48,294 bases of DNA, taken from contig PAQL01000027.1 of NCBI GenBank assembly GCA_002709295.1, positions 1 through 48,294 on the forward strand. Reading direction: 5' to 3'. The DNA is from Phycisphaerae bacterium (GTDB lineage: Bacteria; Planctomycetota; Phycisphaerae; Phycisphaerales; SM1A02). A program made the translations under genes and the position numbers. This document shows positions 12,819-18,581 of the stretch, in pieces (position 1 is the stretch's first letter; every line of letters starts with the position of its first letter). The notes beneath the pieces were generated by a model. That model did not search any database, was not told the origin of the DNA, and worked only from the letters and a program-made list of their open reading frames with translations.

Positions 12819-14426
12819 ATGAGTGAAGCGGATCCACCCATAACCGACCGGGACTCCGTCCCCACCTTCGAGGAGGGGCGTTGGAGCGTGGGGTTCGGCG
12901 AGGTCTGGAGACAGGCCTGGCCGACGGTCGTCTCCATGACGAGCTACACGGTCATGGGTTTCATCGATGCGCTGATGGTCGCGAGGCTCGGACCGACCGA
13001 GTTCGCCGCCCAGGGCAACGGGGGCCTCTGGTCCTTCCTGCCGATCTCGCTGATCTTCGGCGTCCTGACCGTGGTCAACACCTTCGTCTCCCAGAACGTG
13101 GGGGCGGGAAGAGGGGTGCAGACCGCCCGTTATGGGTGGGCCGGGCTCTGGCTGGGGGTCTTCGCGTGGCTGTTCCTGCTTCTGCCCTGGGCGGTCCTGC
13201 TGCCGACGCTGTTTCGTCTGGCCGGCCATGAACCGGCCCTGATCGACATGGAGGTCGAGTACGCCTGGATCCTCCTCGCAGGCGGCGTGGTGCTGCTCGG
13301 CGGCAAGGGGATGAGCCACTGGTTCTTCGGATACCAGCGTCCCAGGGTGATCACAGTGGCGGCCCTGACCGCCAACGTGGTCAACATCGTCGCGAACTAC
13401 ATCTTCATCTTCGGGGAGGAGGGACTGCCCGCATGGGGCCTCCCCGGGGTTCCCGGCGTGCCCGCCATGGGACTGCCCGGCGCGGCGATCGGCACCGTGA
13501 TCGGGACCACCGTGGAGCTTCTGATCCCACTCGCGGTGTTCCTCGGACCCCGGCTGGCCGCGGAGACCGGAAGTCGTCGTGCCTGGAAGCCCGACCTGGA
13601 TGCGATTCGCGACCTGCTCCGCATCGGCTGGCCGGCCGCCGTCCAGTTCGGCAACGAGATGGCCTGCTGGACGATCTTCACCACGGTGCTGATCGGCAGC
13701 TTCGGAACGGATCACATGTCGGCGGGCTGGGCGGTCGTGCGATACATGCATCTCAGCTTCATGCCTGCGGTCGGATTCTCGGTGGCCACCACATCCCTGG
13801 TGGGCAAGTGGATCGGCGCCGGACGCCCCGACATCGCGGTCTCAAGGGTTCGCATCGCACTCACGCTGGCGGTGGGGTACATGACGGTGTGTGCGATCGT
13901 GTTCCTGTCGGCCCGTTCGTCGCTGGTGTCGGTGTTCATCGACGACACCGTCGATCCCCGGACCGCTGCGAACATCATCGCCATCGGCAGTGGGATGCTG
14001 GTCTGGGCGGCCCTGTTCCAGACGATGGACGCCGTGGGCATCGTCTACACCGGAGCCCTTCGGGGGGCCGGGGACACGGTCTGGCCCGGAATCACCACCG
14101 CGGTCCTCAGCTGGACGCTTCTGGTCGGACTCGGCTGGTTCCTGGTCGTCCGATTCCCTGGCCTGTCCTCCGAGGGGCCCTGGATCGCGGCCACGGCCTA
14201 CATCGTGCTTTTCGGAGTGGTGATGGCGGTTCGGTTCGAACGCGGTGGTTGGCGAAAGATCGATCTGCTGGGGGACATCCAGCACGAGGCGGCCAGGCAT
14301 GCCCCCCTCGGGCCGGCCCCCCCGGCTCCAGATGGTTCCGCCGTGGTCCGGGACATGGTGGAGGACCAGATCCAGGGGCCTGTGGGCCCCGGCGGACCCG
14401 ATTCCGGGGGATCCTCGACGGCTTGA
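12819..14426 (+). CDS. MATE-family multidrug/toxin exporter
   Basis: A 535-residue membrane transporter with about twelve hydrophobic segments and MATE features: an early QAWPTVVSMTSYTVMGFIDA helix, the paired ...VNTFVSQNVGAG motif, and the two-fold repeat. These proteins exchange Na+ or H+ for cationic drugs or metabolites. The body is of normal length, with an extra polar, Pro/Gly-rich cytoplasmic tail of about 60 residues. The ATG at 12819 is chosen because the 117 codons upstream overlap comM and are Arg-rich. TATGCT ends 8 nt before the ATG and no ribosome-binding sequence is seen. Substrate unknown. Confidence 0.88.
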   Translation: MSEADPPITDRDSVPTFEEGRWSVGFGEVWRQAWPTVVSMTSYTVMGFIDALMVARLGPTEFAAQGNGGLWSFLPISLIFGVLTVVNTFVSQNVGAGRGVQTARYGWAGLWLGVFAWLFLLLPWAVLLPTLFRLAGHEPALIDMEVEYAWILLAGGVVLLGGKGMSHWFFGYQRPRVITVAALTANVVNIVANYIFIFGEEGLPAWGLPGVPGVPAMGLPGAAIGTVIGTTVELLIPLAVFLGPRLAAETGSRRAWKPDLDAIRDLLRIGWPAAVQFGNEMACWTIFTTVLIGSFGTDHMSAGWAVVRYMHLSFMPAVGFSVATTSLVGKWIGAGRPDIAVSRVRIALTLAVGYMTVCAIVFLSARSSLVSVFIDDTVDPRTAANIIAIGSGMLVWAALFQTMDAVGIVYTGALRGAGDTVWPGITTAVLSWTLLVGLGWFLVVRFPGLSSEGPWIAATAYIVLFGVVMAVRFERGGWRKIDLLGDIQHEAARHAPLGPAPPAPDGSAVVRDMVEDQIQGPVGPGGPDSGGSSTA

Positions 14427-14451
14427 GCCCGGCGGCGGGTCGGACTACCAT
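14423..14451 (+). promoter_or_regulatory. Predicted promoter of the TPR/alpha-CTD gene
   Basis: TTGAGC (14423-14428) and TACCAT (14446-14451) are separated by 17 nt, a housekeeping-sigma arrangement. It would give an untranslated leader of about 85 nt before the ATG at 14542. It overlaps the end of the MATE gene. Prediction by eye only. Confidence 0.4.
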
Positions 14452-14541
14452 GAGCGATTCCCCCGCCGCCATCCGGTCGGGGACGATTCATCACCGAGCC
14501 ACGTCCGGCGGCCGGCCGACGTACACCAGGAGCGTCATCGA

Positions 14542-15462
14542 ATGACCGAAGGACTCGACACCGTCATCGGCGGCAGCGTCATCGACGAAGGAAAGGCCGA
14601 CGCCTGCTTCAAGCAGGGGTGCGAGCAGGAGGCCGCGGGAGACCGAATGGGTGCTCTCGCCTCGTTCCGCGAGGCGGTCGAACTCGGTGGCAACCCCGAG
14701 CATCTTCATCGACTTGCCTACCTTCTCGACCTTCTCGGGGAGGAGGATGAGGCGATGGACGTCTACGACCAGGCGGTTCGCACCGGGACCCCCCGCATCA
14801 ACACGCTGGTCAACCTCGGCGTGCTCTACGAGGACCGGGGCGACTACGCCAAGGCGGAGTACGTTCTGAAGCAGGTCATCGACAGCGATCCGAATCATGA
14901 CCGTGCGAATCTCTTCCTCAAGGACGTGACGGCATCCACCGGGATGTTCATCGAGGACGAGATCGAAGCCGCGGCGACCGGTCACGATGCGATTCTCGAC
15001 ATTCCGGTGACCGACTTCGAACTGTCCGTGCGGGCGAGAAACTGCCTCAAGAAGATGCAGATCCGCACCCTTCGAGATCTCGTGAGAGTGACCGAGGCCG
15101 AGCTGAACAGCTACAAGAACGTCGGTGACACCACCGTCACCGAGATCAAGCAGATGCTCTCCAGCAAGGGACTTCGTCTCGGACAGGACATGTCCGGTGG
15201 TCCCCGCCTCCGCCCCGAGGACATCGAGGAGTTCGTCGCTCGCGGCATCTCCGAGCAGACGCTCGGCATGCCCATCGCGGTTCTGAACCTCTCCGTCCGG
15301 TCGCGAAAGGCGCTGCAGATGCTCGGCATCCACAGCCTCGGAGAGCTGGCGGCCAGAACCGAGGCCGAACTCCTCGGGGTCAAGAACTTCGGTCAGACCA
15401 GCCTTGACGAGATCAAGGAGAAGCTGGCGGAACACAGCCTGGGACTTCGCACCATCGATTGA
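14542..15462 (+). CDS. TPR protein with two RNA polymerase alpha C-terminal domains
   Basis: A 306-residue protein. Residues about 15-130 hold TPR-type helical repeats (for example TLVNLGVLYEDRGDYAKAE). Two alpha-CTD-like domains follow: 152-215 (ELSVRARNCLKKMQIRTLRDL ... VGDTTVTEIKQML) and 242-306 (NLSVRSRKALQMLGIHSLGEL ... GQTSLDEIKEKL). Both match the helix-hairpin-helix core of RpoA-CTD, which contacts UP-element DNA and activators. The RpoA N-terminal assembly domain is absent, so this is not the polymerase subunit. A TPR adaptor acting at promoters or on polymerase is my inference. SD-like AGGAG at 14528-14532. A strong terminator follows, so it is probably monocistronic. Confidence 0.85.
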   Translation: MTEGLDTVIGGSVIDEGKADACFKQGCEQEAAGDRMGALASFREAVELGGNPEHLHRLAYLLDLLGEEDEAMDVYDQAVRTGTPRINTLVNLGVLYEDRGDYAKAEYVLKQVIDSDPNHDRANLFLKDVTASTGMFIEDEIEAAATGHDAILDIPVTDFELSVRARNCLKKMQIRTLRDLVRVTEAELNSYKNVGDTTVTEIKQMLSSKGLRLGQDMSGGPRLRPEDIEEFVARGISEQTLGMPIAVLNLSVRSRKALQMLGIHSLGELAARTEAELLGVKNFGQTSLDEIKEKLAEHSLGLRTID

Positions 15463-15589: not shown

Positions 15590-16954
15590 ATGTCCCGGTT
15601 TCCCTCGGATGACGTCGATCGACTTCGGCGAAGGCTGATCAAGGGCGTTCCGGTGCTCGGGCTGGGATTCATGAGTTGTCGGGGCAAGGAGGGCATTCCG
15701 GAGGCCCCGCCCCAGTCCTCGGTGAAGCCGGTGGTCGCCGATCCGATCGTGCTTAATGGTGATCGAGGTCGTCCCCTCCCGCCCTCCAGCGAACCCGGGA
15801 TCAGGGTGCGAGCAGCCCGTGTCGATGGTGACCTTGTGGAGTTCGGACCGGTCGGAGCCCGTTTCTGGGTGACTGCTCCCGGACGCGATCATCGCGCCAT
15901 GCATGTCGGGCCGGTCCGTTTCCAGCGTCTGGCGGCGGGATGGCGGGTGACCTGGAGCGTCTCCGGGCGAACGAGTACCCGGGTCATCGAGGGTGCTGAG
16001 CCGCTCACGCTGACCATGGCGGATCGGGAGGAGGTCGGCCCGGAATTCAGGGGGCGGATGCTCTCCGGCACCGTGAATCTGGTCGGAGGAGGGGATTCGA
16101 GACGGAGACACATCGACGTGGTGTGTCATCTCTCGATGGAGACGTATCTTCCCGGGGTCCTTGCCGGCGAACTCTTCGACAGCTGGCGTCCCGCGACCCA
16201 TGAGGCGCTGGCGATCGCAGCCCGCTCCTTCGCCTTGTGCGAGCGTTTTCACTGGTTGTCGCGGCGGTCCCACGACGTGGTGGCCGACGAACGCAGCCAG
16301 GTGTGGAACGGCGGGCTGGCGCCTCGTCGCTCCTCCGAGGCGGTCCTTCGGACCCGGGGCGAGGTTCTTCTCCATCGAGGCAGGGTGGTGCCCGGCTACT
16401 ACAGCGCCTCCTGTGGAGGTCGACCTGCAGCCGCGATCGATGCGATCTCCTCGAATCCGGTGAACGGAATCGCTCCGCTGTCGGTCCCCGATTCCGATCG
16501 CCGTGGAGTCTGCCCCTGTCGTTCCTTCGGGCCGCACGGCTCATGGCGGGCATCCTTCGACATCCGTGCGTTCAATGAAGCCCTTGCATCTCGAGTCGAC
16601 ACCGGTTCGGAGGTCCCTCGCTGGCCCATTGATGTCGAATTGATCGAGGCCTTCGAATCCGGACGACCCCGATCATTCCGCATCTCCTCGGCGAGGCGTG
16701 GATCGAAGCCGCTCGAGCTGCGGGCGGTGGATCTCCAGCGGGGCCTCAACAGCACGGCGACGGGGCGACCCGTGCGCAGTGCCGACTTCGAGGTCTCGGT
16801 CCGCCCCGACGGCATCCGGGTCGATGGTGCGGGCTTCGGACATGGTGTGGGACTCTGTCAGTACGGAACGGAAGCTCTCGCGAGGTTGAACACCCCGGCC
16901 CGTGAGATCCTTGCTCGCTACTATCCCGGCGCCGAGATCCGCAGGGTCTGGTAG
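15590..16954 (+). CDS. SpoIID/LytB-domain protein (peptidoglycan processing)
   Basis: A 454-residue protein with an N-terminal export signal containing RRRLIKG followed by a hydrophobic stretch ending FMSC (Cys30); it looks like a Tat or lipoprotein signal, not decisively either. The SpoIID domain spans about 160-450: METYLPGVLAGELFDSW, ALAIAARSFALCE, VPGYYSASCGG and the C-terminal GFGHGVGLCQYGTEALA. SpoIID is a lytic transglycosylase acting on stripped glycan strands, and related SpoIID/LytB proteins occur in many non-sporulating phyla. A TAGACT hexamer lies at 15542-15547. The gene is followed by the bidirectional terminator at 16999-17034. Confidence 0.87.
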   Translation: MSRFPSDDVDRLRRRLIKGVPVLGLGFMSCRGKEGIPEAPPQSSVKPVVADPIVLNGDRGRPLPPSSEPGIRVRAARVDGDLVEFGPVGARFWVTAPGRDHRAMHVGPVRFQRLAAGWRVTWSVSGRTSTRVIEGAEPLTLTMADREEVGPEFRGRMLSGTVNLVGGGDSRRRHIDVVCHLSMETYLPGVLAGELFDSWRPATHEALAIAARSFALCERFHWLSRRSHDVVADERSQVWNGGLAPRRSSEAVLRTRGEVLLHRGRVVPGYYSASCGGRPAAAIDAISSNPVNGIAPLSVPDSDRRGVCPCRSFGPHGSWRASFDIRAFNEALASRVDTGSEVPRWPIDVELIEAFESGRPRSFRISSARRGSKPLELRAVDLQRGLNSTATGRPVRSADFEVSVRPDGIRVDGAGFGHGVGLCQYGTEALARLNTPAREILARYYPGAEIRRVW

Positions 16955-16991
16955 CCGGGGCGTCAGACGGCTTTCGCGATACGAATGAGAC

Positions 16992-17040
16992 AAAAAAGAG
17001 GTCGGCCGCGCCCTTTTCAGTTCGCGGCCGACCTTCTTTT
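16992..17040. terminator. Bidirectional intrinsic terminator
   Basis: 16999-17010 (aggtcggccgcg) and 17023-17034 (cgcggccgacct) form a perfect 12-bp stem with a 12-nt loop. An A run at 16992-16997 precedes it and TTCTTTT follows, so it can end transcripts in both directions: the SpoIID-domain gene on plus, and on minus (with a T6 tract) the structured RNA described next. Confidence 0.9.
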
Positions 17041-17110
17041 CCCTCAGCCTCCAGGTCCGGACTGGGAGGTGAGTCGCATTGCGCTCCTCTGCCCCTCAGG
17101 CTTGCGGCGA

Positions 17111-17334
17111 TCAGGCGTTCCCAGTCCTGAAAGCACTTTCTCGCCACGCACAGTGTGCCCTTTTCCCTATGCGGCGAGACCTGAGTCCTAGTCCGGCGCC
17201 TGTCCGGTGTTCCCACACCAGAGAGGCCGATGTCGTCTCGACGGTGTTCCCGCACCATCGAAACAGGTGTGTCCCAGTGGCGTTCCCGCACCACCAAGAC
17301 GGTTGCTCGAGCGGCGTTCCCGCACCGCTCGAAC
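17111..17334 (-). repeat. Four tandem 30-nt hairpin units plus one degenerate unit
   Basis: Units lie at 17305-17334, 17271-17300, 17235-17264 and 17198-17227, with linkers of 4, 6 and 7 nt. On the minus strand each has the form N8-GGTG-YGGGAA-CRCC-N8. The 5' arms are GTTCGAGCGGTG, GTCTTGGTGGTG, GTTTCGATGGTG and GCCTCTCTGGTG; the 3' arms are CGCCGCTCGAGC, CGCCACTGGGAC, CACCGTCGAGAC and CACCGGACAGGC. All twelve positions pair (Watson-Crick or G-U) in three units and eleven of twelve in the last. A fifth, weaker unit at 17111-17130 keeps TGGGAA inside a TCAGG/CCTGA stem. Confidence 0.85.
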
Positions 17335-17601
17335 TGTGGAGAGGGCCTCTTGGAGGAAGCTCTCTCCAGCTCCCTGTCCAGTGCGAAGGAGAAACGCTAC
17401 TGGACACTCAGAACATGTCACCGAATCGGCCCTTGTCTCGCCGGATCGATCTTTTTTGGCGGTTTTCTCGGGCCACTCGCCGAAACCGGCGAGATCGGGA
17501 ATGCCCTTCGGATCTCATAAGCAACTCTGAATCAAGGCTTTAAAGAGACTGATCCGGGGGGCTGTCTGGAACCACATCACGCCCCGAAGGGTGCCTTTTG
17601 C

Positions 17602-17640
17602 AAAAAAAAGTCCACCCTGGCTGGGAGGCTAGGATGGACT
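17602..17640 (-). terminator. Intrinsic terminator of the coiled-coil gene
   Basis: On the minus strand AGTCCATCCT (17640-17631) pairs with AGGGTGGACT (17618-17609), 10 bp with one G-U, followed by a T8 tract (17609-17602). It begins 26 nt after the stop of the coiled-coil gene. Confidence 0.9.
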
Positions 17641-17666: not shown

Positions 17667-18581
17667 TCAGCGGTGGATGGAAGCGATGGGGCTGTTGCCC
17701 GGTGCCTCCGTCGGGTCCTCCAGAGGGTCCGCTTCGAACAACGACTCCTCCAGATCCCACTGGTCGCCTTGAAGGGCTTCCCGGGCGGCGGCCTCGTAGT
17801 CGTCATGGCCGCTTCGCTGGGCCAGGGTCTGGAGCTGGGCTTCCTGGATGGTCTTCAGCTCCGCCAGCTTGGACTCCAGCTGATCGAGGCTCCCGACCTC
17901 GCTGAACTTGTCGTACTCCGCGAGGATGGCCTGCTGCTCCCTGGTCATCTCGATGAGACGGTCGTTCCGGGCGATCGCATCGATCTGCTGGTCGAGCTGC
18001 CAGAGCTTGGCCTGATACCGCCCATGCTCCTCTTCGAGCTTTCCGAGGATCTCGGCCAGTCGTTCCTTCTGGGTGCCGAGGAACTCGATCTGGGCCTCGT
18101 CGGTCGCCTCCCGGTCTCGATAGGTGGCTCGAATTCCATGGATTCTTCGAGCCTCCTTCCGGGCGCCTTCGATGTCGAAGGCCCGGCCGGAGACGCGGAT
18201 GACGGGTGATCGCCCGCTGGCCGCCTCCACTTCCGCCTCCCCGAGGGCCAGCCGGATGTCGGCAAGGTCGGAGGTGGTCATGGAGACGACTCGACTGGCG
18301 ATCTCATGATCCTGATGCAGCCTTGAGATCTGGCGTTCGACCTCGACGATCTCGGCTCGAACCTCGGCGATCCGTTCGGGGTACTTCTCGGCAAGGCCGG
18401 AAAGCTGTCTGCGGAGCGCGACCGGATCCTCGACGAAGTCGTCGGCGAGCGCTCCCACGTGGGACCGGATCTGGTCGAAGCCCGCCGCGATGCGATCAGG
18501 GCCGGCGATGAAGGCGAGGGTGCCGAGGCCTGCCGCCCCGATCAGCCCCCAACGGAGGACACAACGACTGAAGCTGAACAT
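17667..18581 (-). CDS. Membrane-anchored coiled-coil protein
   Basis: A 304-residue protein. I start it at the ATG at 18581, since the 129 codons upstream overlap the sigma-factor gene and are low-complexity. Residues 9-26 are hydrophobic (LRWGLIGAAGLGTLAFIAG), a likely membrane anchor. Residues about 55-265 are charged heptad-like sequence with long Glu/Lys/Arg/Gln helices (for example RAEIVEVERQISRLHQDHE), predicted coiled coil. The tail is acidic. No enzymatic motif is visible and I do not recognise the family; a PspA-like or structural role is only a possibility. It diverges from the sigma-factor operon across a 241-nt shared intergenic region, which suggests joint regulation. Confidence 0.75.
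   Translation of the reverse strand: MFSFSRCVLRWGLIGAAGLGTLAFIAGPDRIAAGFDQIRSHVGALADDFVEDPVALRRQLSGLAEKYPERIAEVRAEIVEVERQISRLHQDHEIASRVVSMTTSDLADIRLALGEAEVEAASGRSPVIRVSGRAFDIEGARKEARRIHGIRATYRDREATDEAQIEFLGTQKERLAEILGKLEEEHGRYQAKLWQLDQQIDAIARNDRLIEMTREQQAILAEYDKFSEVGSLDQLESKLAELKTIQEAQLQTLAQRSGHDDYEAAAREALQGDQWDLEESLFEADPLEDPTEAPGNSPIASIHR

Follow-up and report, generated by a model that had tools for sequence, protein, structure and literature searches.

A repeat-bearing candidate non-coding RNA of Phycisphaerales as a probable sponge for a CsrA-type regulator

Introduction

Proteins of the CsrA type read GGA in RNA, best when it is presented in an ANGGAX hexaloop directly on a stem, and Arg31 and Arg44 of the protein matter in this contact, as described in PMC4005645. 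The CsrB family of RNAs is widespread in Gammaproteobacteria where, according to a 2020 review (PMC7652899), fliW is absent; the same review counts the joint action of FliW and a small RNA on CsrA, in any species, among the matters still to be determined.

Here, we analyse a stretch of 48,294 nt (the window) that forms positions 1 to 48,294 of contig PAQL01000027.1 of a Phycisphaerae bacterium (assembly GCA_002709295.1). A sequence-only reading of the window had pointed to a minus-strand array of hairpins with GGA in their hexaloops, and had named CsrA as the first candidate partner. In the open-access literature, which leaves out most subscription papers, we found neither an RNA of this kind nor a CsrA sponge described from Planctomycetota.

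Results

Extent and fold of the candidate RNA

The minus strand of positions 16992-17406 carries a separately terminated candidate non-coding RNA of about 415 nt, conserved among Planctomycetota (Phycisphaerales), as judged from its folding z-score and its syntenic orthologues. We infer its two ends, 17406 and 16992, from a promoter-like site and a terminator. The stretch 16990-17420 folds at -227 kcal/mol, compared with -173.5 +/- 6.2 for shuffled sequences (z -8.7), and none of 100 shuffles reached so low a value. By eye, a -35-like element GAGACA (17434-17439, minus strand) and a -10-like element CATGTT (17412-17417, minus strand) can be recognized upstream, corresponding mostly to TGACA-like and CATACT sequences among the relatives. 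They are separated by 16 nt in the window and, again by eye, by 16-17 nt in the relatives from genus g1, to which the window belongs, and genus g34. A simple consensus scan for promoters and terminators reported neither this pair nor the terminator of the RNA.

Two genes that flank the RNA proved useful as syntenic markers. Its convergent neighbour is a SpoIID-domain gene (15590-16954, plus strand; PF08486, E 5e-14), and upstream lies a coiled-coil gene on the minus strand (17667-18557, start codon uncertain), which belongs to no Pfam family and was placed in cluster C5. The latter has its own hairpin followed by T8 at about 17600-17640, before the RNA promoter. An unexpected pairing of domains was noticed near the RNA, in a plus-strand gene at 14341-15462 whose product has tetratricopeptide repeats and, in addition, twice matches the C-terminal domain of RNA polymerase alpha.

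Read from 5' to 3' on the minus strand, the RNA would begin with a hairpin (17375-17406, MFE fold) whose loop, UUUCUCCUU at 17386-17394, is anti-Shine-Dalgarno-like. A second hairpin, UGGAGAG..CUCUCCA (17337-17368), is present in both the MFE and centroid folds and stands directly 3' of a CAGGGAG motif. Then come four tandem units, supported by sequence and by covariation across 15 such units: three 12-bp hairpins with the hexaloop CGGGAA (unit 1, 17305-17334; unit 2, 17271-17300; unit 3, 17235-17264) and a fourth with 11 of 12 pairs and the hexaloop UGGGAA (17198-17227), a stretch that pairs differently when the RNA is folded as a whole (MFE). They are followed by a long hairpin (17138-17180) with GGGAAAAGGG in its loop, unchanged in the eight aligned members from g1 and g34, by a degenerate unit CAGGACUGGGAACGCCUG (17112-17129) whose counterpart in the alignment is the GGGAAAAGGGAACUCC hairpin of g34, and by a box UGAGGGGCAGAGG (17086-17098) identical in all eight aligned members of these genera. 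The 3' domain (16991-17051), on which our models R1 and R2 were built, consists of GAGGGAAAAG, a terminator hairpin and a T-run. Across the window and 25 of its relatives (26 sequences in all), 97.3% of the cells in the terminator hairpin are paired, and 7 of its 13 pairs have changed on both sides.

This anatomy confirms what the sequence-only reading had observed. All four units lie on the minus strand where it had placed them, three with the loop CGGGAA and one with TGGGAA, and its linkers of 4-7 nt measure 4, 6 and 7 nt; the degenerate fifth unit, the further hairpin at 17138-17180 and the terminator, now backed by covariation, are likewise present. The 12-bp stems that it described hold for units 1-3, with 12 consecutive pairs if G-U is allowed, and fail for unit 4, in which a C-C mismatch leaves 7 consecutive pairs.

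Distribution and synteny

Our searches indicate that the locus represents an RNA family. Within one family of Phycisphaerales, it occupies one syntenic site in no fewer than 13 genera. When 61 family genomes were searched at the DNA level, 13 were matched, the window's own included; one of them (G007) was rejected as a member, the matched stretch reading as coding sequence and model R1 finding no match in that genome. With R1, 72 of 181 family genomes were matched at E 0.01, and 56 of these, from 10 genera, score at least 40 bits. Twelve of the 16 weaker genomes were inspected (all except G134, G126, G145 and G132): the RNA is present in five (G121, G147, G013, G051 and G164), whereas the other seven gave matches to non-members. 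Weak R1 loci were discarded where only 0-4 GGGA were present and the marker neighbours absent (L067, L070-L074, L076).

The surroundings of the RNA follow two layouts. In g1, g34, g29, g27, g14 and g3, the SpoIID gene is convergent downstream, and coiled-coil, sigma and kinase genes lie upstream in most; SpoIID also adjoins the RNA in g7 and g17. In g42, g39, g2, g43 and g26, a gene of the PEP-mutase/isocitrate-lyase family is found near the RNA, several of these genera also having citrate synthase, BamB-like and PurH genes there. The two layouts are tied together by g1 and g34, in which the same PEP-mutase-family gene lies upstream of the RNA at a distance of 4-5 kb. Examination of 40 SpoIID loci added four members (G049 and G006 from g7, G144 from g34 and G062 from g17) and recovered G164 and G180 again; three loci (L154, L156, L159) end at contig ends and the absence of the RNA there carries little weight. 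One of these, L159 (genome G021, genus g22), shows a GGGAAT repeat-like run beside SpoIID, on the strand and at the place usual for the RNA, in which a clear terminator is absent and which may represent a member, a relic or a chance occurrence. The RNA of g17, found beside SpoIID in three of the four genomes searched, has diverged and carries loops such as GAAAGGGA and AAAAAAGGG.

In a sample of 347 genomes from the class, every match stronger than E 1e-5 came from this family. Nine genomes outside it gave weaker R2 matches (E 0.0015-0.0076; 11 loci); nine loci were checked (L194-L202, leaving out L203 and L205) and eight rejected, with 0-3 GGGA each. The ninth, L196 from genome G235 (R2 E 0.002), has 7 GGGA and 3 AGGGA upstream, and may reflect chance or a distant relative. 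In an rpoB tree of 53 rows, rooted at its midpoint, all 23 RNA-bearing rows (counting g17) fall within one half of 30 rows, with support of 93/77 that is not starred. The RNA was not detected, by models of its 3' domain, in the other 23 rows or in the nested genera g28, g16, g45, g6 and g18, the SpoIID gene of g28 sitting at a contig end. This distribution suggests a single origin followed by at most five losses or missed detections.

Neither the window nor 14 loci (its own and those of 13 relatives) gave any Rfam match at the gathering score; CsrB, CsrC, RsmX, RsmY and RsmZ were not among nine sub-threshold matches, all with E of 0.29 or worse. These results also bear on the idea that the locus is a diverged housekeeping RNA (6S, SRP, RNase P or tmRNA). 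Most members have a single match, at one syntenic locus, as would fit such an RNA. The scarcity of even remote Rfam similarity speaks against it, as does a tRNA/tmRNA scan of the window that found none, and an RNA for which half of the family tree yields no accepted R1 or R2 match would be odd for a housekeeping function; we regard this explanation as scarcely credible.

The hexaloop array and the AGGGA element

In the 342 nt examined in the window, NNGGAN hexaloops closed by a stem of 5 bp or longer occur four times, where 400 dinucleotide shuffles gave a mean of 0.09 and a maximum of 2. The three g1 genomes have 4, 3 and 4 such copies, each of six g34 genomes has one, and 0-1 are found elsewhere. 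A strict hexaloop array was rejected as the signature of the family on these counts, and the conservation expected by the sequence-only reading holds for the RNA as a whole, the array being confined to g1 with one copy in g34. Within the 15 units from these two genera, the stems vary and the loop is nearly fixed: 91.7% of cells are paired, 9 of 12 pairs have changed on both sides, and the covariation score is 0.685, compared with 0.315 in shuffles (none of 500 as high) and at most 0.158 in slid controls. The 15 units are partly copies inside one RNA, and the pair changes are thus not independent events.

What the family shares is a shorter element. Counting 5-mers in 24 RNAs from 12 genera, with each genus weighted once and most of the terminator hairpin excluded, we found AGGGA to be the most enriched (53.8 observed, 10.6 expected; z 18.6) and to be present in 12 of 12 genera; the runner-up k-mers were AAGGGA (z 16.2) and GGGAA (z 11.2). 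A scan of the named genome collection with the terminator pattern returned 66 stretches. At least three AGGGA within at most 330 nt before the pattern were present in 29 of 30 Planctomycetota-like stretches, a group set before counting that includes two labelled 'uncultured', one 'bacterium' and one Chitinophaga label suspected to be wrong, and in none of the 36 others. This contrast argues that AGGGA belongs to the RNA family and is not a mere companion of such terminators. On this evidence, AGGGA is the family-wide signature, and the strict hexaloop array is the version of the window's own genus, inside which the element has turned into a series of CGGGAA hexaloops in tandem.

A short motif repeated in loops on freely changing stems is the anatomy of a protein-docking RNA. 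In single RNAs, GGGA is enriched at P <0.05 in only 17 of 30 members, which do not include the other two g1 genomes (0.137 and 0.177); this speaks against a CsrA sponge. In its favour, the MFE fold leaves 0.71-0.81 of the GGA inside GGGA unpaired in g1, compared with 0.37-0.41 in shuffles; the window has 15 GGA and 8 GGGA, with the GGA of GGGA 0.75 unpaired. Outside g1, the corresponding values for GGGA range from 0.20 to 0.75, several genera standing barely above shuffles, AGGGA is mostly not in hexaloops, and some recurring loops read AAAAGGGC and lack GGA; the low values and the GGA-less loops count against a CsrA sponge. Plain GGA is hardly enriched over dinucleotide shuffles (15 versus 11.4 in the window, P 0.097; P <0.05 in few members), which also counts against a CsrA sponge, and its enrichment was rejected as a demonstration that CsrA binds. 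E. coli CsrB, taken as a control, has 22 GGA versus 14.7 (P 0.005), 82% of them unpaired, and scores 0 in our strict perfect-stem hexaloop test.

The four units of the window have the ANGGAX geometry, but their first loop position is C or U in place of A, for which a lower or altered affinity for CsrA is expected. AGGGA itself is ANGGA with N = G, which eases this worry for the family, not for the units of the window.

Other readings of the locus, taken together very unlikely in our view, would see in it G-tract RNA quadruplexes, a mere terminator or attenuator region, or a small protein gene. Immediately ahead of the terminator, two g27 loci (L049, L050) do have four evenly spaced GGG tracts, GGGAAAAGGGAAGAGGGAAAAGGG, which could form an RNA quadruplex; the hairpins of g1 have one G-tract each. 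Attenuation could be imagined in g42, g39 and g2, where a same-strand gene follows the RNA; the convergent orientation of the downstream SpoIID gene in g1 and five other genera speaks against it. Two minus-strand ORFs, 98 and 183 codons long, overlap the RNA stretch, but the unit spacings of 34, 36 and 37 nt do not keep the reading frame and the covariation of the stems is RNA-like.

The 5' hairpin raises the question of whether the locus encodes mainly a base-pairing small RNA, with the pyrimidine-rich UUUCUCCUU loop pairing with the Shine-Dalgarno regions of targets and the GGGA hairpins serving as stability elements or as a chaperone site. The nine-base loop is complementary to the Shine-Dalgarno-like AAGGAG and is identical in all nine g1 and g34 members read, although the pairs that close it are GCG/CGC, CGG/CCG or GGG/CCC; pyrimidine-rich 5' loops or single strands are also seen in g27 and in g7/g14. 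As such, the loop was not seen in other genera, whereas AGGGA is present in all 12 counted, and base pairing leaves the rise of CGGGAA units from one to four unexplained. Hfq was not found in any of 28 genomes, and was rejected as a partner of the RNA. We consider a mainly base-pairing role rather improbable. The loop may nevertheless be an anti-Shine-Dalgarno-like seed with an added base-pairing role in g1 and g34, which would be compatible with the sponge role.

CsrA paralogues

The sequence-only reading had suggested that the genome be checked for csrA, and two copies are present. The locus is conserved in relatives, matches no unrelated Rfam family at the gathering score and coexists with csrA, the opposite in each case of what that reading had listed as speaking against it. 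Of the 181 family genomes, 177 have a detected CsrA (PF02599), including every one of the 104 that are 90% or more complete and 5% or less contaminated. In the window's genome, csrA1 lies between fliW and a flagellin gene. CsrA2 scores 53.7 bits against PF02599 (cut-off 27) and, apart from four additional residues after IGD, can be aligned to ordinary CsrA over its whole length. In the alignment it retains R6, R7, V40, V42, H43, R44 and I47 of E. coli CsrA, known positions of RNA contact.

Among RNA-bearing genomes checked, 22 of 23 have csrA2, the exception being G038 (85% complete) with csrA1 alone; in G080, a g42 genome that is 83% complete, the RNA is present and no csrA was found. Genus g42 is informative in this respect: 18 of its 19 genomes have the weaker-scoring csrA alone, which is csrA2 in both genomes whose sequence was taken, and 17 of 19 have the RNA. 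Since the RNA occurs there without csrA1, the latter seems dispensable and csrA2 the better candidate. CsrA stands as a good but unproven partner of the RNA, as the sequence-only reading had proposed, with two gene copies in the genome and AGGGA fitting ANGGA; within this proposal, csrA2 is likelier than the flagellar, fliW-adjacent csrA1. Against a CsrA2 sponge count the two RNA-bearing genomes G038 and G080, in which no csrA2 was detected, and the finding of csrA2 in genera without detected RNA. In 25 of 32 csrA2 leaders (L236-L267), GCAGGAGG, usually inside GGGCAGGAGGUCC, directly precedes the start of the gene, in RNA-bearing and RNA-less genera alike. It is possibly a site of CsrA autoregulation, as would be expected under self-repression by CsrA2.

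We noticed one position of CsrA2 that partly follows the presence of the RNA. The column aligned to N35 of E. coli is E in 24 of 24 sequences from RNA-bearing genera (a set that includes G016 by genus, the RNA being unseen in G016 itself). In 35 genomes without detected RNA, it is E in six (g28, g16, g12, g38 twice and g23) and another residue in 29. Among the nested RNA-less genera, D35 is found in g45, g6 and g18, and E35 is kept in g16 and g28. The RNA-bearing set conserves 41 columns, and residue 35 is the sole one of them that differs in all three of g45, g6 and g18. Had any three of the 18 genera changed with equal likelihood, all of them would belong to the five without detected RNA with a probability, computed by hand, of 10/816 = 0.012. 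This association is a pointer and not proof: it was noticed post hoc, the change from E to D is mild, and absence of the RNA is called from models of its 3' domain. Two further changes were observed in lineages without detected RNA, R7 having become T or H in g6 and g18, and H43 having become N in g6.

The RNA could instead be a scaffold or sponge for a protein other than CsrA that reads AAGGG or AGGGA in loops. AGGGA and AAGGG are enriched where GGA itself hardly is, a motif stricter than the GGA of CsrA, the g17 loops GAAAGGGA and AAAAAAGGG can be read in the same way, and a protein reading AAGGG would suit the data about equally well. The proteins searched for as partners were CsrA and Hfq. 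On the other hand, AGGGA is a legal CsrA site, CsrA2 accompanies the RNA in nearly all of the genomes examined for it, and variation at its residue 35 goes partly with the presence of the RNA. We judge another partner to be unlikely, while taking it seriously.

Discussion

Our preferred reading, to which we assign a probability only slightly better than even (about 0.53), is that a dedicated trans-acting RNA titrates a CsrA-type regulator, most likely CsrA2, through repeated GGGA loops. The RNA would be made from its own promoter and end at its own terminator. Its loops would display many copies of G-G-G-A, as AGGGA across the family and as CGGGAA hexaloops on 12-bp stems in g1, and every copy would be a dock for one RNA-binding face of the dimeric regulator. 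When abundant, the RNA would titrate CsrA2 off the ribosome-binding sites of target mRNAs, comparable to CsrB/RsmZ in Gammaproteobacteria. The transcription of the RNA, its binding to CsrA2, the sequestration and the targets are all steps that we infer from sequence.

It is tempting to go further and to suggest that a planctomycete CsrA sponge originated independently, that a dedicated CsrA2 operates beside the FliW-linked CsrA1, that AGGGA and residue 35 have been co-evolving, and that the docking hairpins expanded from one to four in a lineage-specific manner. We offer this wider scenario tentatively, at somewhat less than even odds. If it were true, another phylum would have arrived at the sponge strategy by way of an unrelated RNA, and would have done so in genomes without detected Hfq. 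The family offers a natural test set: in some genomes a candidate sponge is accompanied by fliW and two csrA genes, and sister genera lack csrA1 or, apparently, the RNA.

How the locus relates to the closest described systems can be summarized as follows. It is moderately probable that the RNA works like a CsrA sponge, and it does not belong to the Rfam families of CsrB and Rsm RNAs. With CsrB and CsrC of Enterobacteria and RsmX, RsmY and RsmZ of Pseudomonas, it shares a similar size (E. coli CsrB has 369 nt), repeated GGA-containing loops and the presence of csrA in the genome. It differs from them in having no Rfam match and in its motif, AGGGA/CGGGAA as opposed to general GGA, and the planctomycete genome carries fliW and two csrA genes. 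The position of csrA1 between fliW and the flagellin gene recalls the FliW-CsrA-flagellin switch of Bacillus and Campylobacter; this switch does not explain the RNA, which also occurs in genomes without detected csrA1 (g42, G001, G051, G043). As in Pseudomonas, for which RsmN and multiple Rsm paralogues are described, there is more than one CsrA-type protein per cell; unlike RsmN, as far as its description goes, CsrA2 gives an ordinary CsrA alignment throughout, apart from its insertion after IGD. Finally, the Rhodopirellula-1 motif (PMC2864571) is also a candidate structured RNA, from Planctomycetes and Proteobacteria, and resembles the RNA described here in this general respect.
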